Below are positions 11,017 to 35,661 of a stretch of DNA of 35,661 nucleotides, one piece after another (within the stretch, counting starts at the first letter, position 1; the number at the start of each line of letters is the position of its first letter). A model generated the notes under the pieces. That model was given only the letters and a program-made list of their open reading frames with translations, was not told the origin of the DNA and ran no database searches. The translations under genes and the position numbers were made by a program. Where the stretch lies: the NCBI GenBank assembly GCA_013286315.1, contig JABDFX010000022.1, forward strand, positions 1 through 35,661, written 5' to 3'. The stretch comes from Bacteroidota bacterium (GTDB lineage: Bacteria; Bacteroidota; Bacteroidia; Chitinophagales; Chitinophagaceae).

Positions 11017-12711
11017 TCAAATCCTTTTTGGCAAAATGGTGGCGAGCATCGAAGAGTCTACTGCCTGAGCCCTGGTGTGGCTGTCAATGAATGTTCCATT
11101 CAATTTACTGATATGAAAATGCGGGAATGTCAGCGTATCCTGTATCATGAAACCTTCATTACGCAGCGAATCGATTTTTATTTTTGGCGCAAAAACCCGG
11201 ATATTTCCTTTCAGGGTATACAGTTCAGATTGTTTTATGAGGTAAACCGGTTGTGCCGAATAAAATTCAAATGCAAATTCGGGAATCAAATCCCTGAATG
11301 TATATACGGGCCCGGTCAGATTGTTTTCTTTCATGAAAGTAGCCGCCTTCATGCCCGATTGATATTTAAATATTTCAGGATAAAACAAAGTGTTCAGGAA
11401 GAGGCTTAAGACCAATACAGCTGAAAAAGATCTTCCGAAAATATTTACCAGTTGATTCCCCGGGAAAAAGCGGTAAATGGAAAATGCCAGCGTCGCGAGT
11501 ACGGCACCTGTCAGTAACAAATTATGCAATCCGAAAATAATCGCCAGCACGATGGCGAAAGAGAATAATAGACAGTATAAGATATTCTGAACATACAATA
11601 TTGTTTTATGATAAACCTGTTCATCCAGGTTTGTCAGAAAAGCAGACACCATGATGGATAGAAATGGATACAGGATATTCAGATAATGGGGCAGTTGAAA
11701 TTGAGATAAGGAAAATATAATAAATCCGGTTACGAAAATAACCGGATTTATATAATCCGTATTTGAATCCGCGGGCCTGCCAAATTTTTTAATCCGCGAC
11801 ACCATCATCAGAATAACAAAAACCGACCATGGAAGGAAACTCCACATCAGCGTATGTGTATAAAACAAAATGTCGCCTTCCCCTTTGATGGGTCCTGTAT
11901 TTAAAAAACGGCCAAACTGACTGTCCCAAAAGAAAAAACGAATACCGGAGACATGTGTTTGACCAAACAATATTTTTTCGGGATGATGGTCAAACTGGAT
12001 ATACAGGCAAATCAATTCCGGCATTATAAAAAGGATCAGCAGGGTGATTGCCAGCCACCATCGTGGATTCCAGAATTCGCTCCATTTTTTTTTAATTGTC
12101 CACTCAGCAATAAATCCGGACGCTACGATAGCTGCGATAAATATCCCTTTTGTCATTACAGCTGCTCCGAGAAATAAGGAGCCCGGTATAATAAATATCG
12201 ATTTGTTCTCCTTATATGTTCTATAATAAAAATAAGTGGCTGCAACAATGAGCCCGGTCAGGTATGGCTCTGCGCGAACGTCGTTATTGGAAATGATCAG
12301 GTGTTCTGCCGCCAGATATACCAACACGGACAATCTCGCTGTTTGTACATTATAAAGTTCTTTTGTCCACGCGAAAATAAAATATGCCCCTGCAAGCCAA
12401 AATAAAAACGCGGGCAATTTATAGGCAAAACCATTTATTCCAAATAACCTGAAGCTCAAAGCCGTCATCCAAAAGGGAAAATGTGGTTTGTCAAGCCAGT
12501 CCTTTCCCTGGACCTTCAGGTTAATGTAGTCACCTGACAAAACCATGGTTTTGGAAATCGTTGCGTATAGTGCTCCATCCGGTTCCATCACTGGCAGTAA
12601 TAAACCGCTGCCATTTACAAAAACCCCCAAAAGCAAAAGCCAGTAAAACCATTTGTCCAGCCAAGCTTTCCAGCTGGTATGGAAAATTGCTTTTTCATAT
12701 GCGCTTCCCAT
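11017..12711 (-). CDS. ArnT/PMT-type membrane glycosyltransferase (GT39/GT83-like)
   Basis: A 564-residue polytopic inner-membrane protein. Its first external loop has the family motif: 'MEPDGALYATISKTMVLSGDY' (split at about residues 41-61), then 'DWLDKPHFPFWMTALSFRLFG', matching the 'DE.ry..ia.eM..sgdw...dKPPl.yWl' pattern of ArnT-like enzymes. Such enzymes move a sugar from a polyprenyl-phosphate carrier to lipid A or another acceptor on the periplasmic side. About 11-12 hydrophobic segments precede a soluble C-terminal domain of about 130 residues ('GPVYTFRDLIPEF' onward). It lies 16 bases downstream of the PAP2 phosphatase gene on the same strand, a sensible pairing because both handle polyprenyl or lipid phosphates. 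The actual donor and acceptor are unknown. Confidence 0.88.
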   Translation of the reverse strand: MGSAYEKAIFHTSWKAWLDKWFYWLLLLGVFVNGSGLLLPVMEPDGALYATISKTMVLSGDYINLKVQGKDWLDKPHFPFWMTALSFRLFGINGFAYKLPAFLFWLAGAYFIFAWTKELYNVQTARLSVLVYLAAEHLIISNNDVRAEPYLTGLIVAATYFYYRTYKENKSIFIIPGSLFLGAAVMTKGIFIAAIVASGFIAEWTIKKKWSEFWNPRWWLAITLLILFIMPELICLYIQFDHHPEKILFGQTHVSGIRFFFWDSQFGRFLNTGPIKGEGDILFYTHTLMWSFLPWSVFVILMMVSRIKKFGRPADSNTDYINPVIFVTGFIIFSLSQFQLPHYLNILYPFLSIMVSAFLTNLDEQVYHKTILYVQNILYCLLFSFAIVLAIIFGLHNLLLTGAVLATLAFSIYRFFPGNQLVNIFGRSFSAVLVLSLFLNTLFYPEIFKYQSGMKAATFMKENNLTGPVYTFRDLIPEFAFEFYSAQPVYLIKQSELYTLKGNIRVFAPKIKIDSLRNEGFMIQDTLTFPHFHISKLNGTFIDSHTRAQAVDSSMLATILPKRI

Positions 12712-14975: not shown

Positions 14976-16346
14976 ATGAAAACAATCATAGAACCATTCA
15001 GAATAAAATCTGTTGAGCCCATTTATTTCAATACTGTGGAGGAACGAAAACTCATTCTGGAGAATGCTTTCTACAATCCCTTCCTGATCCGTTCGAAAGA
15101 CGTATTGATCGATTTGCTGACGGACAGTGGAACCAGCGCAATGAGCAGCAGTCAATGGGCGGGAATCATGCATGGTGATGAATCCTATGCAGGCAGTCCG
15201 AGTTTCTTTCGTTTTGAAGAAACCATTCAGGAAATCACCGGGATGCCATTGGTGATTCCCACTCACCAGGGAAGGGCTTCCGAAAAAATATTATTCAGCA
15301 TCCTGGGTGGAAAGGGGAAATATTTTTTGAGTAACACCCTGTTCGATACAACCCGGGCAAATATTGAATTCTCAGGCGCAGAAGGTATCGATCTGATTTG
15401 CGAAGAAGGGAAACACCCGGCGATTCCGGCTCCCTTTAAAGGTAATATGGATCTGGTCGCACTTAAACAGATCATTAAAGAAAAGGGTGCAGAAAATATT
15501 CCGCTTTGTATAATTACGGTCACCAACAATTCCGGTGGTGGTCAGCCTGTCAGCATGCAAAATATCCGGGCTGTAAGAACGATTTGTTCAGAAAACAATA
15601 TCCCGGTTTTTATTGATGCCTGCCGTTTTGCTGAAAATTCCTATTTTATCAAATTACGCGAGGAAGGATATAACAACAAACCCGTATTTGAAATTGCCCG
15701 GGAACTTTTTTCATACGCCGACGGTTGTACCATGAGTGCGAAGAAAGATGCTTTTGCCAATATCGGTGGTTTTCTCGCTATGCGGAATGAAGAACTTGCG
15801 CTGAAATGCAGGAATCTGCTGGTCATAACGGAAGGATTTCCTACTTACGGCGGACTTGCGGGAAGAGATCTGGAAGCCATTGCGATCGGATTAAGAGAAG
15901 TAATGGAAGAAAATTATTTGCAATATAGAATACGGAGTATTGAATACCTGGCCAATAAACTGATAGCTGCCGGTGTTCCCATTATGCAGCCGGCTGGTGG
16001 TCACGCGGTATATTTGGATGCAAAAAAATTTCTTGCACATATTCCGGTTGCACAATATCCCGGTCAGGCACTGGTTGGCGCTTTGTATCTGCACGGTGGG
16101 ATCCGCAGCGTAGAAATCGGTTCGCTCATGTTTGGGAAATATGATGACAATAAACAACTCATTCCTGCTCAGCTTGAATTGGTGCGGCTGGCCATTCCCA
16201 GAAGAGTATATACACAGAGCCATATTGATTACGTTGCTGAAGTGGTCATTGAGGTCTTTAATGCAAGAGATAAAATAAAGGGGCTGAGCATTGTTGAGGA
16301 AGCGGCCGTACTGAGACACTTTACTGCTAAACTTCAACAACTTTAG
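14976..16346 (+). CDS. tnaA: Tryptophanase (L-tryptophan indole-lyase)
   Basis: PLP enzyme that splits L-tryptophan to indole, pyruvate and ammonia. The 456-residue protein matches the beta-eliminating lyase family over its whole length: 'LIDLLTDSGTSAMS', 'PTHQGRASE', 'SAKKDA' with PLP-binding Lys257, and 'EGFPTYGGLAGRD'. Specificity residues favour tryptophanase over tyrosine phenol-lyase. Asp124 ('LFDTTR') stands where the phenol-lyase has Thr124 and tryptophanase Asp137. 'RSVEIGS' has Ile381 where the phenol-lyase has Arg381. 'LRHFTAKL' carries His448, equivalent to tryptophanase His463, where the phenol-lyase has Phe. No tnaC-like leader peptide with Trp and a transport gene tnaB follow; it appears monocistronic, with a convergent MocR gene downstream. 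Confidence 0.93.
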   Translation: MKTIIEPFRIKSVEPIYFNTVEERKLILENAFYNPFLIRSKDVLIDLLTDSGTSAMSSSQWAGIMHGDESYAGSPSFFRFEETIQEITGMPLVIPTHQGRASEKILFSILGGKGKYFLSNTLFDTTRANIEFSGAEGIDLICEEGKHPAIPAPFKGNMDLVALKQIIKEKGAENIPLCIITVTNNSGGGQPVSMQNIRAVRTICSENNIPVFIDACRFAENSYFIKLREEGYNNKPVFEIARELFSYADGCTMSAKKDAFANIGGFLAMRNEELALKCRNLLVITEGFPTYGGLAGRDLEAIAIGLREVMEENYLQYRIRSIEYLANKLIAAGVPIMQPAGGHAVYLDAKKFLAHIPVAQYPGQALVGALYLHGGIRSVEIGSLMFGKYDDNKQLIPAQLELVRLAIPRRVYTQSHIDYVAEVVIEVFNARDKIKGLSIVEEAAVLRHFTAKLQQL

Positions 16347-16347
16347 A

Positions 16348-16379
16348 AGTATAAGAGTATAAGAGTATAGGAGTATAAG
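16348..16379. repeat. Tandem 8-bp repeat (AGTATAAG)4
   Basis: Four direct copies of AGTATAAG, the third with one change (AGTATAGG), followed by a partial fifth unit. It starts right after the tryptophanase stop codon and leads straight into the AAGGC-type repeat at the end of the MocR gene. Confidence 0.85.
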
Positions 16380-16385
16380 AGTGGA

Positions 16386-16434
16386 GGCCTTGCCTTAGCC
16401 TTAAGCCTTGGCCTTACGCCTTCGCCTGAGCCTT
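16386..16434 (-). repeat. Imperfect AAGGCN hexamer repeat overlapping MocR 3' end
   Basis: On the minus strand this is about eight imperfect copies of AAGGCN, some with an extra or missing base. The MocR stop codon (16414-16416) lies inside it, so the last six residues (KAQAKA) are encoded by the repeat. The same type of repeat follows the stop codon of the tricorn-like gene at 23501-23543. Confidence 0.75.
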
Positions 16435-17862
16435 AATGAGATTTCCCAAAACACGAATACTCTTATCAATGGTTTCGTCAAAGCTGATCCCGAAACTGAT
16501 GCGTATGAAATGAGTGAAACGAGAGTCTGTACTAAAAATTTGTCCGGGTGCTATGCTGATGTTTTTCGTGAGGGCTTCCTGGTAAAGTTTGAATGCATCA
16601 ATGTTCTTATCCAGTTCGATCCACAATACATATCCACCCCCGGGCCGCGTCATTTTCGTATTGGGCGGGAAATAATCCAAAATAGCCTGCATATACCGCT
16701 GGCATTGGGTATACAATGCTCTTCTCAGGTTTCGCATGTGCAGGTCATAACGACCTGTTTCAAAAAAATGAGCAATAGCCGCCTGGGTCGGCGTTGCGGA
16801 TGTAACCGTATGCATACTCTTTATCTGAATAATCTGATCCTTAAATCTGCCCGGTATACACCATCCAACCCGGTAGCCCGGCGCTAATGTTTTTGATACA
16901 GAAGAGCATAACAGGACCCAACCCTTTTTGTCAAAGCTTTTGCAGGTGCGCGGACGACTTTTTCCAAAATATATTTCTCCATAAATATCATCTTCAATCA
17001 ATGGGATTTTTTTCTTTGTCAACAACCGGACGAGCTGTTCTTTCTTTTCTTCGGGCATACAACTGCCCACCGGGTTACTGAAATTGGTTACAAAAAGGCA
17101 GGCTTTGATTGTCACTTTTTCCATGGCCTTCTTTAGATATTCAATGTCCGCACCCTGATCAGGATGAACCGGAATTTCCAAAACATTTAATTCCAGGCTT
17201 AGCATTACGTTGAATATTCCAAAATAGGTTGGACTTTCTATGGCAACCGTATCTCCCGGCCGGGTGACTGCCCGCAAACAAAATACAAGCGCCTCCATGC
17301 AACCTTGTGTGGTCACTACATCGTTTTCGGTAACACTTCCTCCCCAGCTAAAAGCCTGTTTGGCTATCTGTTTTCGAAGGGAAATATTTCCCTGTATATT
17401 TTCATAATTTATATTACCATTGGGACTTTTACGGATTGCTTCTGCCATCGACTTACTCAATTTGGCCAGCGGGATCAGATTGATGGGAGGCGCAGACATC
17501 GATAAACGTAATACACCTTCTTCCTGCATATTTTCATGAATCATGGCGATCATCTGCGTTACGTTCACCTGCCTGAGCTTTTTCAGCGGAGGTTTAATTT
17601 CCGGGGGCTTCGCAAATCTTGCCGGCAGGATCTTGACATAATATCCTGATTTTGGTTTTGCTTCAATCATACCGAGAGACTCCAGCTCCACATAAGCTTT
17701 GAATGCTGTACTCAGACTGATTCCCTGCTCCTGACTTAATGCCCGCACCGAAGGCAGTTTATCTCCTGACTTTAAAAGATTTTGTTTTATCTGATTTTCC
17801 AACCGGGTTGCGATCTGTATATATAAGAAATCGCTGATGGCAGGGGTTGTCGTCGGTTCCAT
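16414..17862 (-). CDS. MocR-type GntR regulator with aminotransferase-fold domain
   Basis: Residues 10-80 form a GntR winged helix ('LYIQIATRLENQIKQNLLKSGDKLPSVR' region, then 'LSTAFKAYVELESLGMIEAKPKSGYYV'). Residues 115-480 form a fold-type I aminotransferase domain with 'NFSNPVG', 'EDDIYGEIYF' and the PLP-binding Lys in 'SSVSKTLAPGYRVGW'. MocR proteins use this domain to sense PLP or an amino acid and usually regulate a neighbouring divergent gene. Here the divergent neighbour, 80 bases away, is a class V PLP enzyme, the likely target. The frame begins at a TTG (17880), but the ATG at 17862 is preferred. The C-terminal KAQAKA tail comes from an intruding hexamer repeat, so the native end may have been altered. 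Confidence 0.9.
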   Translation of the reverse strand: MEPTTTPAISDFLYIQIATRLENQIKQNLLKSGDKLPSVRALSQEQGISLSTAFKAYVELESLGMIEAKPKSGYYVKILPARFAKPPEIKPPLKKLRQVNVTQMIAMIHENMQEEGVLRLSMSAPPINLIPLAKLSKSMAEAIRKSPNGNINYENIQGNISLRKQIAKQAFSWGGSVTENDVVTTQGCMEALVFCLRAVTRPGDTVAIESPTYFGIFNVMLSLELNVLEIPVHPDQGADIEYLKKAMEKVTIKACLFVTNFSNPVGSCMPEEKKEQLVRLLTKKKIPLIEDDIYGEIYFGKSRPRTCKSFDKKGWVLLCSSVSKTLAPGYRVGWCIPGRFKDQIIQIKSMHTVTSATPTQAAIAHFFETGRYDLHMRNLRRALYTQCQRYMQAILDYFPPNTKMTRPGGGYVLWIELDKNIDAFKLYQEALTKNISIAPGQIFSTDSRFTHFIRISFGISFDETIDKSIRVLGNLIKAQAKA

Positions 17863-20218: not shown

Positions 20219-23200
20219 ATGAGAAAACAGGCAGTTTGCAGTATAACGCTGATATTCATTCTTTTAAAACTGAATGCACAAATTGACGCCGGACTCTTCC
20301 GGTATCCCGATGTTTCGGAAAGCCAGATTGTATTTTCCTATGCAAACGACCTTTGGCTGGTACCCAGGGAAGGCGGTGAAGCGATTAAGATCAGCTCTCC
20401 TCCCGGCGTGGAATCATTTCCAAAGTTCTCACCTGACGGTAAATCCATCGCCTTCACCGGCAACTATGACGGCAACAAGGATGCTTATGCGCTTTCTGTT
20501 ACAGGCGGCGTGCCCATTCGGCTGACAGAGCATGGATATACTGACCGGGTGGTGGACTGGACGCCGGACGGAAAGAATATTTTATTCGCTTCAAACAGGG
20601 AAAGCGGGAAAGCGAGGTTCAACCAATTCTATACAGTTCCTGTTTCCGGAGGCCCTGCCTCTAAATTACCTCTTGCCTATGCGGAATTTGGATCCTATTC
20701 TCCCGACGGTAACCAGATGGCCCTGACTTTCCGTACGCAGGCCGGACGGAACTGGAAACGTTACCGGGGCGGATGGAAGGCCGATATTTATATTTTCAAC
20801 TTTAAAACACTCAGTTCAGAAAATATTTCTGGCTCGGAAACGGCCGGTGATGAGTTTCCGATGTGGACCGGAAACTATATTTATTTCTTATCCGATCGCG
20901 GAGCGGACCTCCGGATGAACCTCTGGCGGTATGATATGGGATCTAAATCTTTTGAACAGGTTACCCATTTTACCGATTACGATGTGCACTATCCTTCACT
21001 GGGGCCGAAGGATATTGTATTTGAAGCCGCCGGAAAATTATGGCTCTATCAACTGGCTTCGCAGCAACTGAAGGAAGTAAAGGTAACCGTCATTACAGAC
21101 GAAACCGCCCTCAAACCGAAATGGGTAAGTACTGAGAAAGTGATACAGCAAAGTTTTATCAGTCCGGATGGTAACCGGGTACTCATGGGGGCCCGGGGAG
21201 AAATATTTTCCCTGCCTGCAGAAAATGGCTTTGTACAAAATCTGACCCAGACTTCGGGTATCGCTGAACGTTATCCTGCCTGGTCACCCGATGGTAAAAG
21301 TATAGCGTATTGGAGCGACCGGTCCGGGGAATATGAATTGTATATCTCATCCGGCAGCATGTTCACTGCCGAAACAAAAAAACTGACTTCCTATGGGCCC
21401 GGGTTCAGATACCGGTTATTCTGGTCACCCGACAGTAAAAAAATTGCGTTTATTGACAAGGCCATGCGCATTCAGATATATGATCTGAGCAGCGGCCGAA
21501 CCATACAGCTCGACAAGGCCCTCCGGTATTCAGAAGGAAATTTAGAAGGCTTTACGGGCAGCTGGTCTTCAGACAGCCGCTGGTTTACATACAGCCGCGA
21601 TCTTGAAAACTTGCATGGTGCCATTTTCCTTTTTGATTATGCCAACCGTTCGAAACGTCAGATCACAAACGGTTATTACGATTGCAGTAGCCCGGTGTTT
21701 GATCCGGAAGGAAAATATATTTATCTGTTGACAAATCAGTCATTCAATCCTTCTTACAGCGATATTGATAATTCATTTATTTATGGGAACGCAGCACAAA
21801 TTGCAGCCATTACCCTAAAGAAATCAACTTCTTCCTTATTATACCCGAAGAATGATACCGTAGCCATTCAATCTGATAAACAGGAACCCGCAAAAACAAA
21901 TACGGATAGCAGCAAAAACAAGAAAGGCACGGGGGGATCGGCTTCTACAGCTAAAAAAGAAGAAGCGAAGGCTGTTGATATTGACCCGGATGGTCTGGAA
22001 TACAGGATGGTCATTCTGCCCATCCCTTCGGGTCATTATATCAGTCTGGATGCGGACAAAGGCAAGATATATTTTTTACAATCTCCGGGTACCGGTTCTG
22101 CTGAAACCCAGGCCATCCTTAAATATTACGATGTTGACAAACGGGAAGTGAAAACGATCCTGACTAATGTTGATGACTTCCAGCTTTCCGCCAACAGGTC
22201 GAAAATATTGTTGCATCGGGACAATAGCTGGGCCATCGTAAAGGGAGAGGAAAATCAAAAATTTGAAAAACCATTACGCATAGCAGAGATGAAAATGCTG
22301 GTCGATCCGGTCAGGGAATGGCAGCAGATTTTCAATGATGCCTGGAGGCTGGAGCGGGATTTTTTTTATGATTCTACCATGCACGGCGTGGATTGGAACC
22401 TCGTGAAGGAACGATATTCCAAGATGATGAAAGGGGCTATGACACGCGAAGAGGTTGATTTTATCATTGGAGAAATGATCGGGGAACTGAGTTCCTCGCA
22501 TACCTATCACGGAGGTGGTGACCTGGAAACGGAAAAACATTCAACCGTTGGATATTTGGGAGTCAACTGGGAAGCTGAGGGCAGTTTTTATAAAGTAAAA
22601 CAAATTATACGTGGCGCGTCCTGGGATGCTGAGTCCAGATCTTCCCTCGATCAGCCGGGCGTGATGATCAGGGAGGGAGACTATATCCTGGCAGTAAACG
22701 GTGTGCCTTTGACAACAGCGCATGAACCCTTCGAGTTATTTCAGGACCTTTCAAATAAGCCCGTAGAACTTACTTACAACACATCTCCTTCCTGGAAAGG
22801 CGCAAAAAAAGTGGTGGTTCAAACAATGACTGATGAATACAGGTTGCGTAATCTGGCATGGATCGAAGGAAACCGAAAGCAGGTGGACTCAGCTACAAAA
22901 GGTGAAGTGGGTTATATATTCGTACCCAGCACGGGCATCGATGGTCAGAGTGAACTGATCCGTCAATTCAATGCACAATGGGATAAAAAAGCTTTGATTA
23001 TTGATGAACGTTTTAATGATGGAGGTCAGATTCCGGATCGTTTTATAGAATTATTAAACAGGACACCTTTGGCATTTTGGGCCACAAGAGATGGAGAATT
23101 ACTGCCATGGCCCCCATTTTCGAATTTTGGTCCGAAAGTGATGCTCATTAACGGATGGAGCGGCTCGGGGGGAGATGCGTTTCCGGATTATTTCCGGAAA

Positions 23201-23500
23201 AAGGCCCTCGGTCCATTGATCGGTGCCAGAACCTGGGGAGGACTCATCGGTATCAGTGGTGCGCCCGATCTGATTGACGGAGGCGGAATAACCGTTCCAA
23301 CTTTCAGGATGATTAATCCGGATGGCACATGGTTCAAGGAGGGGCATGGAGTGGATCCGGATATTGAAGTCAGGGAGGACCTGGGCAGTATGGCCCGGGG
23401 GATCGACCCTCAACTGGTTCGTGCAATCGCTGAAATAAAGGAGGAAGTACAGAAAAAAGGATTTACTGCACCAAAGACTCCGCCTTATGAGAAACGATAA
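20219..23500 (+). CDS. Secreted tricorn-like S41 protease with beta-propeller and PDZ
   Basis: A 1093-residue exported protease. Signal peptide at residues 1-20 (ends 'LKLNAQ'). Residues 25-560 carry repeated 'FSPDGK.IAFT', 'WTPDGKNILF', 'WSPDGKSIAYWSDR' and 'WSPDSKKIAF' blades of the TolB/tricorn double propeller. A Lys/Ser/Ala-rich linker lies at about 560-595. Residues 690-770 form the C1 helical domain with 'SSSHTYHGG' (His761), then comes a PDZ domain (775-890), and then the catalytic core with 'NGWSGSGGDAFPDYF' (Ser983) and 'KEGHGVDPDIEV' (Glu1041), matching the tricorn His/Ser/Glu set. It degrades peptides delivered through the propeller; in Bacteroidota such proteins are periplasmic or secreted. 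It is monocistronic, and its stop is followed by an AAGGC-type repeat. Confidence 0.94.
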   Translation: MRKQAVCSITLIFILLKLNAQIDAGLFRYPDVSESQIVFSYANDLWLVPREGGEAIKISSPPGVESFPKFSPDGKSIAFTGNYDGNKDAYALSVTGGVPIRLTEHGYTDRVVDWTPDGKNILFASNRESGKARFNQFYTVPVSGGPASKLPLAYAEFGSYSPDGNQMALTFRTQAGRNWKRYRGGWKADIYIFNFKTLSSENISGSETAGDEFPMWTGNYIYFLSDRGADLRMNLWRYDMGSKSFEQVTHFTDYDVHYPSLGPKDIVFEAAGKLWLYQLASQQLKEVKVTVITDETALKPKWVSTEKVIQQSFISPDGNRVLMGARGEIFSLPAENGFVQNLTQTSGIAERYPAWSPDGKSIAYWSDRSGEYELYISSGSMFTAETKKLTSYGPGFRYRLFWSPDSKKIAFIDKAMRIQIYDLSSGRTIQLDKALRYSEGNLEGFTGSWSSDSRWFTYSRDLENLHGAIFLFDYANRSKRQITNGYYDCSSPVFDPEGKYIYLLTNQSFNPSYSDIDNSFIYGNAAQIAAITLKKSTSSLLYPKNDTVAIQSDKQEPAKTNTDSSKNKKGTGGSASTAKKEEAKAVDIDPDGLEYRMVILPIPSGHYISLDADKGKIYFLQSPGTGSAETQAILKYYDVDKREVKTILTNVDDFQLSANRSKILLHRDNSWAIVKGEENQKFEKPLRIAEMKMLVDPVREWQQIFNDAWRLERDFFYDSTMHGVDWNLVKERYSKMMKGAMTREEVDFIIGEMIGELSSSHTYHGGGDLETEKHSTVGYLGVNWEAEGSFYKVKQIIRGASWDAESRSSLDQPGVMIREGDYILAVNGVPLTTAHEPFELFQDLSNKPVELTYNTSPSWKGAKKVVVQTMTDEYRLRNLAWIEGNRKQVDSATKGEVGYIFVPSTGIDGQSELIRQFNAQWDKKALIIDERFNDGGQIPDRFIELLNRTPLAFWATRDGELLPWPPFSNFGPKVMLINGWSGSGGDAFPDYFRKKALGPLIGARTWGGLIGISGAPDLIDGGGITVPTFRMINPDGTWFKEGHGVDPDIEVREDLGSMARGIDPQLVRAIAEIKEEVQKKGFTAPKTPPYEKR

Positions 23501-27486: not shown

Positions 27487-29157
27487 TTGAAGCAGATTCT
27501 GAAGGATATATTTAAAATACTCGGCCGGAGAGAGACCCAAAGACTTTGGCAACTCACGGTGGCGGATGTCTTCATCAGTATTTTAGATATTGTGTTTCTG
27601 ATCGTATTGCTTTATGTGATCAATTTTTATACTCAATCCGCTGTACCGGTATCAATAAAATATTTTTCACCCGCCCTTTTCAATGAACATCCGGTCTTAC
27701 TCATCATTTTATTTTTACTTCTCTTTTCGATAAAGAACGTCCTGGGGTTTTTCATTTCAAAAGCACAATTTAATTATGTTTACGGAGTTGCTTCGCGGAT
27801 TTCCAGGGATAATTTATTGCAATATCTGAACGGTCCATATACCGATTATATTCATGTGGATTCTTCTGTGATGAACAGAAGGATCAGCCAGCAGCCCATC
27901 GAATTCTGTCATTATGTTTTGAACGGTTTTCAACAGATTTTCAGCCAAACCGTCTTGATCCTGATCACCATCCTCGCGGTCGTGATCATTAATCCTTTAT
28001 TGTTACCGCTTCTTATTTTGATCCTTGTACCACCTGTTTTCCTGATTTCCATTTTTATAAAAAGAAAGCTCCACGAAGGCCGTATGCAGGGAAAGAGAAT
28101 GAGCGAGAAATCTTTGCAGCATTTGCAGGAAGCACTGGCCGGGTACGTGGAGAGTAACCTGAATTTGAAGAATAATTTCTTTACGAACCGGTATCACCGT
28201 TTCCAGTCTCAACTCAATCATTATCTTTCTGAGCGTCTGACCATACAAAATATGCCTACCCGTTTTATTGAGGTGTTTGCGGTTTTTGGTTTGTTTCTGC
28301 TCATCCTGTTCAATTTTCTTACCTCTCATCAACATTCGATCCCTTTAATAGCTCTGGGGGCCCTCATGGTGGCGGCATATAAAATTATTCCCGGTATCGT
28401 TAAAATCACCAATTTGGCAGGCCAGGTTAAAACCTATGATTATACTACGAAGGGATTAACGAACGGAGAAGGATCATCAGCGGAAACGGCCAATATTCCT
28501 GCCTCCATTTCTTCCGTTGGTTTTGAAAATGTTTATTTCGATTTTGGCAGGAAGAGCCTCCTCAAATCTTTTTCTCTGACCCTGGAGAAAGGAGATATGA
28601 TTGGGATATCCGGCATATCAGGCAGGGGTAAAACGACATTGGTGAATTTACTATTGGGATTTTTATCAGCGGATAAAGGGGATATATATATAAATGGTCT
28701 GATCGCCGATGCAGGAACGAGAAGGAAATTCTGGAAGAGAATTTCATATATCAGGCAGCAACATTTTTTCCTGCATGGCTCGGTAGCGGAAAATATCACG
28801 TTCGAAGAATCTGACTATGACAAAAAAAGACTGAATGATATCCTGACCCTGACGGGAATTGATCAAATGACCCATTTGTTTTCCGATGGACTGGATACTG
28901 TCATAACTGAAAACGGGAAAAATTTAAGCGGGGGACAAAGGCAGCGTTTTATGTTGGCTCGTGCCTTATATAAAGATTTTGACCTGCTCGTATTAGATGA
29001 GCCATTCAGTGAATTGGATAAGGCTGCGGAGATTGAATTGTTGAAGCAACTACGGATGCTTGCAAATATGGGTAAGATCATCCTTTTGATTACGCATAAT
29101 ACGGATGCATTTTCTTTCTGTAATAAGAAAATTCAATTGGATGACACTGAGAAATAA
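27487..29157 (+). CDS. MsbA-type ABC transporter, fused permease and ATPase
   Basis: A 556-residue half-transporter for export of a lipid, glycan or small molecule. Residues 1-310 contain about six TM helices; residues 340-556 are the nucleotide-binding domain with Walker A 'GISGRGKT' (376-383), signature 'NLSGGQRQR', Walker B 'LLVLDEP' and the H-loop His in 'LLITHNT'. It probably works as a homodimer. The start appears to be TTG at 27487 (an in-frame stop lies at 27463, with no in-frame ATG between). The downstream glycosyltransferase gene overlaps it by 17 bases, tying export to glycosylation. The substrate is unknown. Confidence 0.9.
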   Translation: MKQILKDIFKILGRRETQRLWQLTVADVFISILDIVFLIVLLYVINFYTQSAVPVSIKYFSPALFNEHPVLLIILFLLLFSIKNVLGFFISKAQFNYVYGVASRISRDNLLQYLNGPYTDYIHVDSSVMNRRISQQPIEFCHYVLNGFQQIFSQTVLILITILAVVIINPLLLPLLILILVPPVFLISIFIKRKLHEGRMQGKRMSEKSLQHLQEALAGYVESNLNLKNNFFTNRYHRFQSQLNHYLSERLTIQNMPTRFIEVFAVFGLFLLILFNFLTSHQHSIPLIALGALMVAAYKIIPGIVKITNLAGQVKTYDYTTKGLTNGEGSSAETANIPASISSVGFENVYFDFGRKSLLKSFSLTLEKGDMIGISGISGRGKTTLVNLLLGFLSADKGDIYINGLIADAGTRRKFWKRISYIRQQHFFLHGSVAENITFEESDYDKKRLNDILTLTGIDQMTHLFSDGLDTVITENGKNLSGGQRQRFMLARALYKDFDLLVLDEPFSELDKAAEIELLKQLRMLANMGKIILLITHNTDAFSFCNKKIQLDDTEK

Positions 29158-30196
29158 AACACTGATCATTTTGATTCCTGGTTTTCCAGCCAATGTGGAA
29201 GACAGTACCTGCCTGCCTTTTCCTCAGGCATTTGTCAAACATCTCAAATTATCTAATCCGGGGCTGAATATTAAAGTCCTGGCTTTCCAATATCCGTTTT
29301 TTGAAGCTGTTTATGAATGGCATGGTGTTGAGGTACATGCCTTCAACGGCAGAAACAAAGGTGGATTGCAACGTTTATTTTTATGGAGAACGATATGGCG
29401 GCGTCTGAAAAAAATATTCCGGGAGGGACAGGTATTGGGAATTTTGAGTTTCTGGATGGGAGAGACGGCGCTGTTAGCCAAATACGCTTCAAAGAAATAC
29501 GGCGCACGATCTTTTACCTGGCTAATGGGTCAGGATGCAAAAAAAAATAACCGCTATGTTTTTATCACGCGCCTGAAGAGTGAATCACTGATCGCCCTGT
29601 CAGATTTTCTTGCGGATGAATATTACATAAATTACCAAATTAAACCCGCCGTTACCATACCTCCCGGGATTGATGTTGTCTCGTTTCCTGCCCATTCGAT
29701 GGAGAGAAAAATTGACATTCTGGGTGTTGGTTCCCTCATTCCGCTGAAGCAGTTTGACCAGATTATTATGCTGCTTGCAGAGCTCGCAGAATCTCATCCG
29801 GGGATCAGGGCAGTAATTTGTGGTGAGGGACCGGAACGGAGTAAGTTGCAACAACTCATCCATGATTTTCATTTAACCAGCCAGATCGAATTACGCGGGG
29901 AACTGGATCATAATAGTATATTAGCTATCATGGGAGAATCCAGCATACTGGTTCATCCCTCCGCCTATGAAGGATTTGGTGTCGTTTTATTAGAGGCGCT
30001 ATATACAGGTACCCAGGTTATAAGCTATTGTAAACCGATGATTATCCATTTTGACCACCATCATATTGTCAAAACGAAAGAGGAAATGAAGAAAAAACTG
30101 ATGGAGTTGTTAGAAAATAAACGGCTGAATCATGATTCAGTATTGATTTATCCGATCGAAGAAACCTGCAAAAAAATATTATCCCTTTACAGCTGA
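29141..30196 (+). CDS. GT4-family glycosyltransferase
   Basis: A 351-residue GT-B glycosyltransferase. The N-terminal domain opens 'LIILIPGFPANVEDSTCLPFPQAF', and the C-terminal domain has 'DILGVGSLIPLKQFDQ', 'VICGEGPERSKLQQLI' and the donor-binding 'SAYEGFGVVLLEAL', the E-x7-E motif with Glu277 and Glu285. The ATG at 29141 lies inside the ABC transporter gene (17-base overlap); the longer frame from 29105 has no support. Its 3' end overlaps the next, convergent glycosyltransferase gene by 10 bases. The donor and acceptor are unknown; the coupling to an exporter suggests a secreted glycoside or glycolipid. Confidence 0.9.
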   Translation: MTLRNKTLIILIPGFPANVEDSTCLPFPQAFVKHLKLSNPGLNIKVLAFQYPFFEAVYEWHGVEVHAFNGRNKGGLQRLFLWRTIWRRLKKIFREGQVLGILSFWMGETALLAKYASKKYGARSFTWLMGQDAKKNNRYVFITRLKSESLIALSDFLADEYYINYQIKPAVTIPPGIDVVSFPAHSMERKIDILGVGSLIPLKQFDQIIMLLAELAESHPGIRAVICGEGPERSKLQQLIHDFHLTSQIELRGELDHNSILAIMGESSILVHPSAYEGFGVVLLEALYTGTQVISYCKPMIIHFDHHHIVKTKEEMKKKLMELLENKRLNHDSVLIYPIEETCKKILSLYS

Positions 30197-31290
30197 TTGA
30201 TTACCTCGCCCAGACTTTCCGCAATACTTTGAAAACTGAGTTTCTCGCGGAAGTATTTTTCAATTCGCAACCTCTCTTTTTCTATCGGCAGCGTGTGTAG
30301 ATTTTCAAGCAGTTGAGCCAGGGTTTCGACATCTCCCGGCGGGAATAAATATCCATATTTTCCCTTTTCAGTAATTTTTTCGAATGAAGGGATTGCAGTA
30401 ACCACCGGTATACAACCGCAGGCCATGGCTTCCAGCAATGCATAACCACTGCCCTCTGAAAGGCTACCGGAAATGAAAAAATTGGCTGCACTAAACCAAT
30501 ACGGCAATTCACGATGATCCACTTTCCCAATCAGTTTTACCGCATCTTCCAGTACAATACTTTGAAGAACTTTATTCTTTATTTCCTCCAACAGATCTTC
30601 GTTCTGGTATATCATATACAACCTGGCATTCGGATGATAAAGGCCATATTATTTAAAAGCCTTCAGTACGGTGAGCGGATCCTTATTTTTATTCAGCCGC
30701 CCTACCCATAAAAAATTATGTGTACCGGACATACCGAGTCTGGCCTGACTTTTCAATTTATCCTTCCTAATAAAGTTGGTCGATGCCTCCAGCACTTCCT
30801 TACACTTGTATGGGTTTCGTATGATCTTCTTGTTGATCCACGCGGCTGCATTTCTATAGGAAGTAAAGAGGTAAGCATTTATATTCCTGTCAGCCATTTT
30901 TTGCAGAAATCCCTTTATTCCTTCAAACGGTTTTTCCCCGTGATGCTGAACAATGATCCGGCAGTTTTTCCCCATCGTCCATTTTAATGATATTAACTGT
31001 AAAGGGAACACGAGTCCCTCTACCAAAACAATGTCGGGATGTTGACTCTTGATATACCGGTGGGTTTTAAATGGGATATGCCAAAACTTATTGCTGCTTC
31101 TGAAAAAAGCATAAGCCTTCCCATTGATATACTCGATGCCATTATAATCCAGGTGTTTTACGAAGATAAACTGAATCGATTGCTGTATGAAGTCCGCGAA
31201 ACCCAGCGAAGGAGCATGTTTTTCCAATACCTGCAGGGGTTTATTGAATTCACTATGATGATGGTAAACAACATCCACAACTTTAATCAT
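30187..31290 (-). pseudogene. GT4 glycosyltransferase interrupted by an in-frame TAA
   Basis: Two open segments in the same reading frame are separated only by the ochre codon at 30649-30651. The first (to residue about 213) holds the acceptor domain and the start of the donor domain ('FLWVGRLNKNKDPLTVLKAFK'). The second continues without a break ('YGLYHPNARLYMIYQNEDLLEEI') through 'LPYWFSAANFFISGSLSEGSGYALLEAM', which has the E-x7-E donor motif. A CAA-to-TAA change would explain the stop. The complete gene would give about 367 residues, normal for GT4. The start at 31290 (MIKVVDVVYHHH) overlaps the amidohydrolase stop by eight bases; an ATG at 31302 is the alternative. It is either a recent pseudogene or a sequencing error; readthrough is less likely. 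Confidence 0.8.
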
Positions 31291-32470
31291 AGTGAGATTC
31301 ATTAATCGTTGCGAAAACTTCTACCGGGAAATGCATATTCGGTTGATACTTTCTGATTTCGCCAATGAGTCCTGGCAAATCACCCTCCACGAATTTTGTA
31401 TTTCCATTGATGTTTACCTGATTATACCGGAAGAGATTCACGGGGAGGTCCCTGAGCCGGGAAAGTAATGATTTATCAAATAACCTGATTTGCCCTTTAT
31501 GAACAATCAGCAATATGTCTTCGGGATTTGCACTGAATAACTCACTGGTGCCGCATGATTTGTTTTTCATTTTCAGCACAACGATATCTGCATCTTGTTT
31601 AGGTTGTAATTTGCCTTTATTTAAATTCCATAATCTGGCTGGGGTTTCAGTGATCATTCCGAATAATTCATCGTCAGTAACCTGTTGCAATGTGCGCGCA
31701 AGCCTTAGATGTTTCCAGATATTCCAGCTGCCCGTTAAAGTGGAATCGGATCCGAATACAATGGTTGTGCTTGTTTTCAGGTCACGAATCCGTGCATGAC
31801 GATCCAGCAATATTTTATTCGATTCGGGACACCATACCAGGGCTTTGAAATGTTTAGCCTGTTCAGGGTTCATGGACACGCCGTGTACACCTATTAAATT
31901 TCTTCTCAGCAGATTATATTTTATCAACTCATCTATTTCATCAGCGGATCGTTTACTGGTGCCTTCTCCTGTATGTATAACACAATCTTTCCGAAGATGC
32001 ATAGGATTATTCAGTTTCAACTTCCAGTTTTTTTCATATTCAACTGAATGCAAATTTTGCGTTTCCTGTAGTATGTCGATCAATGGGTTTTCGATATCAA
32101 GTCTGCTGCCATGATTGACTACTGTTGTGACACCGGCCAGCAGATTTTTATACATTCCCCAGGCCGACCGCAGTTTTTTGGGAATTCTTAATATTTCTCT
32201 GATATTTTCTTTGTGGGCTTCATGGATATGTTTTCCCCATTCGACATAGTGATCGTACTTTCTGTTACCCAATACCGAAAAGCAATTAAAATCAAGATGG
32301 TCGTGTGAGTTGATGAGTCCTGGAATGGCAATGGCATCAGTGAAACCTATCTGCAGGGGGTCGGAAGAAGGCTGTGCCTGACCGGTTCCAATACCCATGA
32401 TTTTTTCTCCGTAAATAGCAATATTTACCGGCTGTTCTGAATGGACGATGGATAAATGATTAAGCAGCAC
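31283..32470 (-). CDS. Metal-dependent amidohydrolase (SAH/MTA deaminase-like)
   Basis: A 395-residue amidohydrolase-superfamily enzyme. The metal ligands are visible: 'INSHDHLDF' (His56, His58), 'VIHTGEG' (His166), 'GVHGVSM' (His196) and 'FGSDSTLTG' (Asp242). 'LVWCPESN' corresponds to the 'HCP.SN' segment of the TRZ/ATZ and SAH-deaminase branch, so deamination or dechlorination-type hydrolysis of a ring amine is possible. The C-terminal 70 residues are unusual for the family ('LLSRLRDLPVNLFRYNQVNINGN' onward). It lies between a methyltransferase gene (11-base overlap upstream) and the interrupted glycosyltransferase gene (8-base overlap downstream), a tightly coupled minus-strand operon. A tailoring role in a biosynthetic pathway is inferred. 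Confidence 0.85.
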   Translation of the reverse strand: MLLNHLSIVHSEQPVNIAIYGEKIMGIGTGQAQPSSDPLQIGFTDAIAIPGLINSHDHLDFNCFSVLGNRKYDHYVEWGKHIHEAHKENIREILRIPKKLRSAWGMYKNLLAGVTTVVNHGSRLDIENPLIDILQETQNLHSVEYEKNWKLKLNNPMHLRKDCVIHTGEGTSKRSADEIDELIKYNLLRRNLIGVHGVSMNPEQAKHFKALVWCPESNKILLDRHARIRDLKTSTTIVFGSDSTLTGSWNIWKHLRLARTLQQVTDDELFGMITETPARLWNLNKGKLQPKQDADIVVLKMKNKSCGTSELFSANPEDILLIVHKGQIRLFDKSLLSRLRDLPVNLFRYNQVNINGNTKFVEGDLPGLIGEIRKYQPNMHFPVEVFATINESHYD

Positions 32471-33233
32471 GTTGTTTCCTTAAATATAATCCGTAAATGA
32501 CAGGCAGGCCCTTGAAACGTTCATAGACGGCCAGGGCGTTTTTTGTCTCGTAATATGACTTCACTTCTTCATTCACCGTTTTTTCTTCTTCCCGGATCAG
32601 TGTGAATCCGGCATCACAAAAAGTTTTCTTTATTTTTCCGATAGAATGAATATAATTTTTTACTGACAGGCTCCTGCCCCCGTGGCTAAAACTTCGTTTC
32701 CCGCCATTTGCTAGTAAGGAGGGATGGAAATCAGTAACTACCAGCTCACCTCCATTTTTCAGAACCCTGAACCATGATGCGATTGCTTCTTCAATGTTTT
32801 TAATATGAGCGATGGTGAGGGTTGAAATAATCATATCTATGGAGGAATCCGGTATGGACGTCAACAAATTATCGGTGGTTTTTTGCGTCAGGGCGAACGG
32901 GAATTTACACTTTAACAGTTCGAGCATAGAACCCGAAACATCAAAACCAGTTAAATGGGAAGGGTTTTTTGAATAGATTTTTTGCCAATGCCTGCCGGTG
33001 CCACAGCCGATGTCCGCTACTTCTTTGTCCCTGAGGTCGATGTTTTCAATGAGATCAGAAAAGATCCTTTCATCCAGATCAAGCATGAGATTGCCAGGCT
33101 GTTTATCATAATCCGCCGACCAGATTTCATATGCCTGTTCAGGGGCCAGCTCAGATTTTGAGAGGCCGGTTTTGTACAGAAAGTCTTTGAAGGTTGTGAT
33201 CATTTTGTTAACAGACGTTTGGATTCCTGTCAT
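32460..33233 (-). CDS. Class I SAM-dependent methyltransferase
   Basis: A 257-residue Rossmann-fold methyltransferase. Motif I is 'VADIGCGTG' (residues 72-80), followed by 'LTGFDVSGSML', 'DMIISTLTIAHI' and 'VLKNGGELVVTDFHPSL', the UbiE/Methyltransf_11 pattern. It transfers a methyl group from SAM to an unknown small molecule. A second ATG (33203, 'MITTFKDF') is an alternative start. The 3' end overlaps the amidohydrolase start by 11 bases, so the two are coupled. It is the first gene of the minus-strand arm and diverges from the radical SAM genes. Confidence 0.88.
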   Translation of the reverse strand: MTGIQTSVNKMITTFKDFLYKTGLSKSELAPEQAYEIWSADYDKQPGNLMLDLDERIFSDLIENIDLRDKEVADIGCGTGRHWQKIYSKNPSHLTGFDVSGSMLELLKCKFPFALTQKTTDNLLTSIPDSSIDMIISTLTIAHIKNIEEAIASWFRVLKNGGELVVTDFHPSLLANGGKRSFSHGGRSLSVKNYIHSIGKIKKTFCDAGFTLIREEEKTVNEEVKSYYETKNALAVYERFKGLPVIYGLYLRKQRAA

Positions 33234-33364
33234 TCCTTTCTATGAATACGCGATTTCAGCGGAACAGGTTGTATTTCTGCTATTTAATATCGTTTTTTTG
33301 CAACCAGTTTAAGATGGCCGACGTATCCACATGTGGAGGGGGGCACCAGGCCCCGGGAATTTCT

Positions 33365-34864
33365 ATGACTGGTATTTTATTATTCAATCCGCGAAGTGCC
33401 AACGCCAAATATCGTGTACCCAATTCCATCCTGAATATAGCCGCTTCCGTAGAAGGCAAATATCACTGGGTAATCATTGACGGAAACCGGGAAATTGATC
33501 CGTTGGCGAGGATCATGCAGTGGCTGGAAACGGGCAATTACAAATATGTTGGATTTACGGTCATGCCCGGTCCGCAACTGAAACAGGCGATACCTTTTTC
33601 AAAAACAATCAGGGAATATTTCCCCGGGATAACAATGATCTGGGGCGGATATTTTCCGACGAATCAGTATAAGTCCGTTTTGCATTCTGGTTATGTGGAT
33701 TTCGTGATCAACGGACCCGGCGATCATTGTTTCCCGCAGTTGATCGATGCCCTGGAAAATAATAAACCATATGAGCTGATAAAAAACCTGATTTATAAGT
33801 CCGGCGATCAAATTATAAAGACCAGAAAGGAGGATCTGATTGAGCAGGACGAACTGCCGGATCTCCCTTATGATAAACTGGCCGGGTTTTATCCGATGGA
33901 AAAATACCTGGGTAAAACCTATCTCGGTAATAAAACACTTGCCTATCATTCGAGTATCGGCTGTCCTTTTACCTGTTCGTTTTGTGCTGTTGTTCCAACG
34001 TATGAGGCCCGCTGGAAAGCAAAATCGGCTCAAAAAGTATATCGTGATATTAAATACATTAAAGATAAATGGGGTGCCGATGCGATAGAATTTCACGATA
34101 ATAATTTCTTCGTCTCAGAGAAACGTACAGTGGAATTTGCAAAACTCATACTGCCGGAAAAAATGAGCTGGTGGGGTATGGCACGTATCGACACGATGCA
34201 TAAATTCAAAGACGAGTCCCTGGCGCTGATACGGGAGGCAGGTTGCAGAATCATTTTTTTTGGCGCAGAAAGCGGTAACAACGCGATACTGAAGCAAATG
34301 GATAAGGGCGGCACGCAAAACGGTGATCAGATTGAAGAATTTGCGGCCCGCATGAAAAAATTTGACATCATCCCGGAATATTCTTTCGTGTTGGGTATGC
34401 CGGCACCAACACCTGCGGAAGTTGAAGCGCAGATTGATTTCGAAATCAATTTTATAAAAAAGATAAAACGTATTAATCCCGATACGGAAATTATTCTATA
34501 TACCTACAGCCCCGTGGCAACCGAAGGTTCCGATCTGTATAATGATGCTCTTTCAAAGGGATTTAGATTTCCGGAAAAACTGGAGGACTGGATCAGTCCA
34601 GCCTGGGAAAATTTTGATCTCCGGAAAAATCCGTTGACTCCCTGGCTCACGCCGGGCATGATTGATAAAATCAAAAACTTTGAGACTGTATTAAACGGAT
34701 ATTACCCGACCATAACGGATATACGCTTGAACTCGTTCAAAAGGAAGGCGATGCACCTGCTGGCGGGCATCCGGTATAATATCAACGTACACAAATATCC
34801 CTACGAAATAAAATTATTACATCGATTGTGGAAATATCGCCAACCTGAAATTCAGGGATTTTAA
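33365..34864 (+). CDS. B12-binding-type radical SAM enzyme (BchE/HpnJ-like layout)
   Basis: A 499-residue radical SAM protein with a 4Fe-4S motif 'CPFTCSFC' (Cys200, Cys204, Cys207) preceded by a Rossmann-like cobalamin-binding domain ('MTGILLFNPRSANAKYRVP', 'YVGFTVMPGP', 'MIWGGYFPT', 'YVDFVINGPGD'). The DxHxxG base-off loop is not evident, as in several members of this class. The core continues with 'EFHDNNFFVSEKRTVEF', 'FGAESGN' and 'EYSFVLGMPAPT'. The frame is open from 33242, but the start at 33365 fits the family and leaves 131 bases for the divergent promoters. Two bases after its stop a second radical SAM gene begins. Members methylate or rearrange unactivated carbons; the substrate is unknown. 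Confidence 0.86.
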   Translation: MTGILLFNPRSANAKYRVPNSILNIAASVEGKYHWVIIDGNREIDPLARIMQWLETGNYKYVGFTVMPGPQLKQAIPFSKTIREYFPGITMIWGGYFPTNQYKSVLHSGYVDFVINGPGDHCFPQLIDALENNKPYELIKNLIYKSGDQIIKTRKEDLIEQDELPDLPYDKLAGFYPMEKYLGKTYLGNKTLAYHSSIGCPFTCSFCAVVPTYEARWKAKSAQKVYRDIKYIKDKWGADAIEFHDNNFFVSEKRTVEFAKLILPEKMSWWGMARIDTMHKFKDESLALIREAGCRIIFFGAESGNNAILKQMDKGGTQNGDQIEEFAARMKKFDIIPEYSFVLGMPAPTPAEVEAQIDFEINFIKKIKRINPDTEIILYTYSPVATEGSDLYNDALSKGFRFPEKLEDWISPAWENFDLRKNPLTPWLTPGMIDKIKNFETVLNGYYPTITDIRLNSFKRKAMHLLAGIRYNINVHKYPYEIKLLHRLWKYRQPEIQGF

Positions 34865-34866
34865 TA

Positions 34867-35661
34867 ATGGCCATCCAATCACTATATCAAACCTATAACC
34901 GGTTTCTTACGCTGCAAACAGATAAGATCAGCAGCCTGCCGATCGTTATCCTGATGCCACATAGTTCCTGTAACTGCCGCTGTGTAATGTGCGATATCTG
35001 GAAGGGAAATCATAATCTCAGGCAACTGGATGAATCGGATATCAGGGGCCTGTTGCATACTTTCAGAAAATATCAGACCCGGCAGGTGGTTATGTCGGGT
35101 GGCGAAGCCTTACTGAACCCTCATTTTTTCAGATTCTGCGAAATATTAAAAAGCCAGCAGATAAAAATCACCCTTCTTTCTACCGGACTGACCGTTCAGA
35201 AAAATGCAGAACTTCTGGTGAAATGGGTGGATGATATCATTGTATCACTGGACGGGAACGAAGTATTGCATGATACAATACGAAATATACCGGGCGCTTT
35301 TAAGAAGTTAAAAGCAGGCATTCAATCTATCCGGTCCATCGACCCTCATTTTCCAATTACAGGAAGATCCGTGATTCATCGGCTCAATTTTCGTCATTGG
35401 CGGGAAATTATTCGCGCAGCCAGGGAAATCGGTCTGGATTCCATCAGTTTCCTGCCTGCAGACGTCAGTAGCACAGCTTTCAACAGAGAGTTAGTCTGGA
35501 CTGAGAACCGGCAGCAGGAGATCGTGTTAAAAGAAGCTGAGCTGGAAGAGATGAAAATGATTACAGGCTCGATACTGGAAGAATTTAGTGATGAATTTAA
35601 AAGCCGGTATATCGTTGAGTCTCCGCAAAAATTCCAAAAGATCTATTATTACTACGCCGCA
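34867..35661 (+). CDS. Radical SAM enzyme, N-terminal part (3' end outside window)
   Basis: 265 codons are visible before the window ends. The 'CNCRCVMC' motif holds the cluster cysteines (Cys35, Cys39, Cys42, C-x3-C-x2-C), followed by 'VVMSGGEALLNP' (the GGE SAM-binding motif) and 'DDIIVSLDGNEVLHD', the pattern of the MoaA/PqqE/SPASM-type radical SAM group. Cys37, between the ligands, is extra. Whether a SPASM domain follows cannot be seen. The start ATG is two bases after the previous stop codon, so both radical SAM genes form one transcription unit. Confidence 0.88.
   Translation, partial: MAIQSLYQTYNRFLTLQTDKISSLPIVILMPHSSCNCRCVMCDIWKGNHNLRQLDESDIRGLLHTFRKYQTRQVVMSGGEALLNPHFFRFCEILKSQQIKITLLSTGLTVQKNAELLVKWVDDIIVSLDGNEVLHDTIRNIPGAFKKLKAGIQSIRSIDPHFPITGRSVIHRLNFRHWREIIRAAREIGLDSISFLPADVSSTAFNRELVWTENRQQEIVLKEAELEEMKMITGSILEEFSDEFKSRYIVESPQKFQKIYYYYAA

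Follow-up and report, generated by a model that had tools for sequence, protein, structure and literature searches.

Which product is built by the genes at the right end of a contig from a Bacteroidota bacterium of the family Chitinophagaceae, where an ABC exporter and two glycosyltransferases (GTs) stand beside an amidohydrolase, a methyltransferase and two radical S-adenosylmethionine (SAM) enzymes? The window analysed here is the entire contig (C22; JABDFX010000022.1, 35661 bases) of a metagenome-assembled genome (MAG) that is 58.8% complete, and its right edge is the end of the assembled sequence. From position 27487 to that edge, eight open reading frames (ORFs) represent seven genes. Domain profiles recovered their families in the order that an earlier note, made from the sequence alone, had given: an exporter, two family 4 GTs (GT4s), an amidohydrolase, a methyltransferase, a B12-type radical SAM enzyme and a second radical SAM enzyme. 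We estimate at roughly two in three (0.66) the probability that the locus assembles a lipid-linked oligosaccharide, which would be tailored by the radical SAM enzymes and methyltransferases, flipped, and passed to a Wzy_C-type ligase or polymerase to give a surface glycan or glycolipid. The assignment of the locus to glycan assembly is supported, not proven; its chemistry and product we infer. The features of the locus are the following.

27487..29157, plus strand: ABC exporter, an MsbA/PglK-type half transporter (ABC_tran, 101 bits)
29105..30196, plus strand: GT4a, a family 4 GT (Glycos_transf_1, 88 bits)
30187..31302, minus strand: GT4b, a family 4 GT, in two ORFs (30187-30621 and 30649-31302; Glycos_transf_1)
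30649-30651, minus strand: in-frame TAA that interrupts GT4b, read from the sequence
31283..32470, minus strand: AHY, a metal-dependent amidohydrolase of the nucleoside/chlorohydrolase deaminase group (Amidohydro_1, 55 bits)
32460..33233, minus strand: MTa, a class I SAM methyltransferase (Methyltransf_11, 58 bits)
33234..33364: divergent intergenic stretch of about 131 bp between MTa and the probable start of B12a, a possible two-way promoter region
33365..34864, plus strand (mechanical ORF from 33242): B12a, a radical SAM enzyme with a B12-binding domain (Radical_SAM, 46.5 bits; B12-binding, 33.6 bits)
34867..35661, plus strand, truncated by the contig end: second radical SAM enzyme, of the SPASM group (Radical_SAM, 51.5 bits)

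A scan of named genomes with a B12a alignment returned at least 534 confirmed relatives (at least 587 stretches), and the best 80 of these were kept. They come from Chitinophagaceae and other Bacteroidota MAGs, with many Mucilaginibacter, two Pinibacter, and Sediminibacterium, Taibaiella and Dyadobacter. Homologues in the 80 loci were called by blastp (E < 1e-10); B12a is present in 80 out of 80 by construction, the loci having been found by B12a, and loci cut by a contig end were scored as misses, so that misses are overcounted. To the left of 27487, 25 ORFs of the window had homologues in 0-2 of the 80 loci. To the right, homologues of the eight ORFs were found in 50, 61, 59, 60, 69, 70, 80 and 76 loci, including the ABC exporter (50/80) and GT4a (61/80). 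The seven-gene grouping is a genuine, co-conserved set, and it forms the left part of a neighbourhood common to many Bacteroidota. Because the genes are co-conserved and syntenic in the 80 loci, we take them to act together, as the earlier note had proposed. Neither of the two objections raised in that note, namely that the genes might not be co-conserved or that AHY and MTa might belong to an unrelated neighbouring locus, was borne out by the counts to the right of 27487 (50 to 80 of the 80 loci) or by those for AHY and MTa given below. Within the Bacteroidota the set recurs, contrary to the note's view that such tailoring enzymes seldom occur together.

The note had also placed a possible scaffold gene beyond the right edge; the genome of the window ends there, and the relatives hold more glycan and radical SAM genes at this position. 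The usual order in the relatives is, on the left, the ABC exporter, GT4a, GT4b (reverse), sometimes the families C14, C16 and C17, and then AHY and MTa (reverse). On the right, it is B12a, often the methyltransferase MTb, the SPASM enzyme, a second B12 radical SAM enzyme (B12b), a further methyltransferase (MTc), a nucleotidyltransferase (NTase, reverse), a Wzy_C protein (WzyC), and the additional GTs GT4d, GT4c and GT2; the relatives also add an initiating sugar transferase. MTb is optional, and does not lie between B12a and the SPASM enzyme in the window, L076, L082, L084 and L099, among others. Families were defined as Louvain groups with their best profile matches, and some are possibly mixed (C18). 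Among the scanned representatives, C17 is a polysaccharide deacetylase, C19 an initiating Bac_transf sugar transferase, C23 a GT9, C20 a PMT_2-like membrane protein and C30 a SAM methyltransferase of the MTS type; C14 is weakly flavin-reductase-like and C16 weakly GNAT-like. A profile search up to E 0.1 found no PDB relative of NTase.

We then counted families (best profile, at least 90 bits) in the covered loci, the 55 in which 5 kb or more of sequence flank B12a on each side. The SPASM enzyme was present in 54, MTa in 51, AHY in 52, B12b in 54, MTc in 55 (its models also pick up other methyltransferases), GT4a in 50, GT4b in 49, the ABC exporter in 43, NTase in 47, WzyC in 38 and MTb in 42. 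In the genus of the window (33 genomes), AHY was found at E <= 1e-80 in 20 genomes and B12a at E <= 1e-200 in 21, with both in 16. Four genomes had AHY without B12a (G011, G021, G029 and G032); three of these loci retain B12b, and in the fourth the contig ends. Five had B12a without AHY (G004, G008, G013, G014 and G030). In L131, an MIP (aquaporin) gene (positions 3-686) precedes the ABC gene, and its family, C25, takes the same place in several Mucilaginibacter loci.

The partners of the locus in the relatives include Bac_transf, Wzy_C, GT2, GT4, GT9, DUF1972-GT4 and GT-C proteins, and these glycan genes favour a glycan or glycolipid among the products suggested earlier (a modified small molecule, a glycolipid or a peptide). 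Bac_transf scored 206.6 and 197.2 bits in two relatives; none was found in the window. The ABC exporter (556 residues) shows about six transmembrane stretches by hydropathy and one ATPase domain. It matches the profiles of MsbA (177.6 bits) and PglK (155 bits, positions 1-556 of 558), both under the cut-off, and no C39 peptidase domain was matched on it. We infer that this half transporter is a probable flippase of lipid-linked glycans. Some loci without the ABC exporter carry another candidate flippase: in L067, of the same genus, an MOP flippase lies upstream of GT4a (Polysacc_synt, 56.3 bits, above the cut-off; PRK10459, 48.9 bits, below it), and in L181 and L182, of another class, a Wzx-like protein was matched with 59.8 and 61.3 bits (NCBIfam cut-off, 300). 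This exchange of ABC for Wzx/MOP proteins is no more than suggestive.

Judged by motif, domain and predicted fold, B12a belongs to the radical SAM enzymes with a B12-binding domain. It is under strong constraint, with a mean column identity of 82% in a set of 30 sequences taken from the nearest 80, and its CxxxCxxC motif was identical in 113 out of 113 proteins (duplicates included). The AlphaFold2 model (pLDDT 82.2) matched TsrM, AprD4, MgmA, OxsB, TokK and CysS. The same motif was identical in 93 out of 93 SPASM-enzyme proteins (duplicates included). Only the first 265 residues of this second enzyme are present in the window, and the SPASM domain itself was seen only in relatives (47 bits in the L057 orthologue). 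B12b was closest to the HpnJ and BchE profiles, far under their cut-offs.

We propose that the chain would be started on polyprenyl phosphate by the Bac_transf enzyme found in relatives, and extended by GT4a, GT4b and the further GTs. B12a and B12b would C-methylate or rearrange a sugar, the SPASM enzyme might oxidise or epimerise one, and MTa, MTb and MTc would add methyl groups. AHY could prepare the glycan precursor for MTa by removing an amine or another leaving group; a less likely role would be the disposal of S-adenosylhomocysteine and 5'-deoxyadenosine. Finally, the ABC half transporter would flip the product across the inner membrane, and a Wzy_C-type ligase or polymerase would take it over.

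To describe the amidohydrolase, we compared its AlphaFold2 model (pLDDT 92.9) with known structures. Foldseek returned TrzN, adenosine-type deaminases, TM0936 and aminofutalosine deaminase, at 14-17% identity, and the profile match to TM0936 reached 2.8e-9. The catalytic set of metal and acid residues (HxH, H, E, H, D) was identical in 94 out of 94 proteins (duplicates included). AHY reached no NCBIfam deaminase cut-off: its best score was 41.8 of 320 bits, for the aminofutalosine deaminase family, and it scored 23.9 of 522 bits against the 5'-deoxyadenosine deaminase family. AHY and MTa lay on one strand and within 120 bp in all 79 B12a loci that have both, and overlapped in 70. Two genes separate them in L156 and L157, variants that carry AHY, MTa, MTb, B12b, MTc and NTase and showed no B12a or SPASM match.

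The alternation of these two genes with C30 was followed in a deduplicated covered set of 84 loci, from which nine duplicate loci and L100 had been dropped (in this MAG, B12a is split into two ORFs, L100:803-2305). AHY with MTa occurred in 67 loci, C30 in 11, AHY alone in two (L133 and L184) and neither in four; AHY and C30 were never found together. AHY-MTa and C30 are mutually exclusive in the covered loci, and they look like alternative finishing steps. On the B12a tree, the two states required seven changes, four of them forced by well-supported branches; the tree behind this count was built quickly, leaves 37 out of 101 inner branches open and includes six rows marked as long. Among the clues to function, this repeated alternation is the best.

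The alternative that survives best concerns AHY only, leaves the rest of the proposed pathway unchanged, and has odds that overlap with those of the lipid-linked glycan. AHY would be a deaminase of by-products (S-adenosylhomocysteine, methylthioadenosine or 5'-deoxyadenosine) and would relieve the inhibition of SAM enzymes. The TM0936 match, the models near adenosine-type deaminases and the fully conserved catalytic residues all speak for it, as does the inhibition of radical SAM enzymes by 5'-deoxyadenosine, described in the part of the source consulted (PMC6079011). In the distant locus L184, moreover, a CNT-type nucleoside transporter (15893-17251) lies close to AHY, MTb and the SPASM enzyme, which would fit the handling of nucleoside by-products. 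Nor is AHY always tied to MTa: the two are apart in L156 and L157, and L133, L155 and L184 have AHY but no MTa. We nevertheless consider disposal by AHY unlikely, if still worth weighing, because the 11 covered C30 loci lack AHY and keep B12a, ten of them also B12b, so that AHY disposal is unneeded there. The adjacency of AHY to MTa in 79 out of 79 B12a loci and an identity to named deaminases of only 14-17% argue in the same direction.

A second explanation concerns the whole locus, which would make a diffusible glycosylated small molecule, an antibiotic or a signal, exported by the ABC protein. Such enzymes are found in antibiotic pathways (the B12a model matches TsrM, AprD4, TokK, OxsB and CysS), a half-transporter exporter is present in the locus, and its patchy spread would suit a specialised metabolite. 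Against this stand the Wzy_C, Bac_transf and Wzx/MOP-type genes of the relatives. The earlier note had seen no polyketide synthase (PKS) or non-ribosomal peptide synthetase (NRPS) gene in the cluster, and none of these families was recognised among the scanned representatives of the relatives either, in a scan that left their large flanking ORFs outside. We regard a small molecule as improbable, distinctly more so than the by-product deaminase.

Much weaker is the idea of a ribosomally synthesised and post-translationally modified peptide (RiPP), in which the SPASM and B12 enzymes would mature a small peptide. The SPASM enzyme is weakly similar to peptide maturases and B12a to RiPP C-methyltransferases. 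The exporter shows no C39 domain match, and a scan for small ORFs (20-110 residues; ATG starts, gaps of more than 60 bp only) returned 669 in the gaps of 104 loci, of which the widest family reached 12 loci and the next eight. All 12 members of this widest family lie on the minus strand in the gap between MTa and B12a, and those listed have 22-26 residues. We rejected a RiPP, which seems very improbable, since the scan gave no widely conserved family. An anti-phage defence island with a viperin-like radical SAM enzyme and a nucleotidyltransferase was rejected as well and has next to no likelihood, as the PADLOC matches (mad2, 39.7-62.4 bits, on three scanned methyltransferases; pVip, 36.5 bits, on the SPASM enzyme; PDC-M51A, 25.4 bits, on B12b; PDC-S09, 18.1 bits, on NTase) cover just shared enzyme domains (methyltransferase, radical SAM, NTase), and partners such as GT, Wzy_C and flippase-like proteins are out of place in such an island.

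How far the locus extends was assessed in an even draw of the phylum, in which B12a (E <= 1e-150) was found in 15 out of 395 genomes and in 12 out of 170 genera. The surroundings were examined for 13 of these 15 genomes, all except G000 and G010. The B12b, MTc and NTase models were each matched in 12 of them (three NTase matches being weak, at 100-114 bits); AHY was present in seven, C30 in four and neither in two. What the loci share is therefore a core of NTase, B12b, MTc and B12a, to which AHY-MTa or C30 is added. Polysaccharide genes do not always adjoin the NTase-B12b-MTc-B12a core; in other classes, its neighbours were GT87 and GT4 proteins and, in one case, an ABC exporter with a full membrane domain. 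On the B12a tree, the Dyadobacter sequence (L119) was placed among those of Mucilaginibacter, which suggests horizontal transfer of the locus. A bolder proposal, which we hold tentatively and at somewhat less than even odds, is that the locus represents an unnamed class of Bacteroidota surface glycan, scattered across the phylum, with a radical-rebuilt sugar (C-methyl branching, deoxygenation or ring contraction), in which NTase-B12b-MTc-B12a would be a portable core and AHY-MTa and C30 interchangeable end modules.

Several observations weigh against a lipid-linked glycan. The locus is patchy, with B12a in only the 15 out of 395 genomes given above, and no member of the Wzy_C family was found near the core in other classes. 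Even among the 55 covered loci, the Bac_transf family (C19) occurred in 16 and WzyC in 38. Sugar-nucleotide genes were not recognised among the scanned representatives. Among the 17 loci with 8.5 kb flanks that lack the ABC exporter, eight were scanned, and three gave Wzx/MOP matches and five none. The family of the L067 flippase (C44) also occurs beside the ABC exporter in L104 and L133, and is therefore not a clean replacement of it. A search of the rest of the window's MAG, at its stated completeness, gave for B12b only B12a itself and a protein on contig C8 with 26% identity, and for NTase no match. Finally, the 80 loci are the best of at least 534 and were picked by B12a, so that their counts are not independent samples.

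Gene limits follow from mechanical ORF calling, longest first. Of the junctions given in the earlier note, the convergent overlap of GT4a and GT4b (10 bases), the overlap of AHY and MTa (11 bases) and the 2-base gap between B12a and the second radical SAM enzyme stood as described. The overlaps of 17 and 8 bases hold only with inner start codons: ABC and GT4a overlap by 53 bases from the first ATG and by 17 from an inner ATG at 29141, and GT4b and AHY by 20 bases from the first ATG and by 8 from an inner start. The genes do lie side by side, as the note had it; two of the seven are not intact, GT4b being split by a TAA and the last gene truncated at the contig end. The GT4b frame (30187-31302) holds a single TAA, and in seven relative loci one and the same protein is matched by both halves; the C-terminal part scored 71.5 bits for Glycos_transf_1, and the N-terminal part gave no match. 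GT4b exceeds 330 residues without a stop in 63 of the 67 relatives that have it, all 63 of which carry a residue at the TAA column. Either a nonsense mutation arose here recently or the TAA is an error of the assembly.

Other B12a proteins resemble the mechanical ORF only from about residue 42 on, and the true start is probably near 33365, not 33242, which would leave about 131 bp between the divergent genes MTa and B12a. A divergent gap of more than 60 bp between these genes was present in 63 loci, with a median of 202 bp (mechanical ORFs). No Rfam match for a B12 riboswitch or another known RNA reached the gathering score in the window, L131, L096, L119, L082 or L182. Outside the cluster boundary, the window encodes a Tricorn-like protease with PD40, PDZ and S41 domains (20219-23500), an enzyme of the beta-eliminating lyase family (14976-16346) and a PMT_2 membrane protein (11017-12711).

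Bacteroidota glycans are known for O-methylation; there are, to our knowledge, hardly any documented cases of radical C-chemistry on surface glycans. In named Mucilaginibacter, Pinibacter and Dyadobacter strains the locus recurs with conserved synteny, which makes the proposed pathway experimentally testable. Moreover, the alternation of AHY-MTa with C30 is a natural experiment, which could reveal the role of an uncharacterised amidohydrolase.

Searches of open-licence PubMed Central full text, a part of the literature, were aimed at this locus, and none of the titles and abstract openings among the matches listed described the locus. Its components can be compared with several known systems. 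AHY shares the fold group and catalytic residues of TM0936-type S-adenosylhomocysteine/methylthioadenosine deaminases, but differs from them by an identity of 17%, by scores below every NCBIfam deaminase cut-off and by its tie to a methyltransferase in B12a loci. The ABC exporter matches PglK/MsbA-type flippases of lipid-linked saccharides (NF050066, TIGR02203) over nearly the full length; with 155 of 1000 and 177.6 of 602 cut-off bits, it is related to both equivalogs and a member of neither. HpnJ acts on a glucosamine-bearing hopanoid, a lipid, according to the part of PMC12583986 consulted; B12b of L131 scored 158.6 bits against HpnJ (TIGR03471) and 91.2 bits against TIGR04295 (B12_rSAM_oligo), and with cut-offs of 577.6 and 400 bits B12b belongs to neither family. 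In the gentamicin pathway, as covered by the sections of PMC4340712 consulted, GenD1 and GenK are B12-dependent radical SAM enzymes that act on aminosugar oligosaccharides, GenD1 being the C-methyltransferase of a pseudotrisaccharide. They belong, however, to a soluble antibiotic pathway, and the GenD1 motif is Cx4Cx2C, in contrast to the CxxxCxxC of B12a. GenD1 and HpnJ serve as precedents in favour of the proposed pathway.

Among the described systems consulted, the closest is the O-glycan cluster of Tannerella (PMC6120980). It too is a glycan locus from the Bacteroidota, and comprises three methyltransferases and several GTs besides a Wzx flippase. It differs in having CMP-sugar genes, which were not recognised in the conserved set here, and the word 'radical' is absent from the main text of that paper. 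Features of the locus described here that set it apart from the Tannerella cluster are AHY, an ABC exporter, a SPASM enzyme and a pair of B12 radical SAM enzymes. The locus is apparently a variant, so far undescribed, of glycan assembly loci, and its radical SAM core is unusual.

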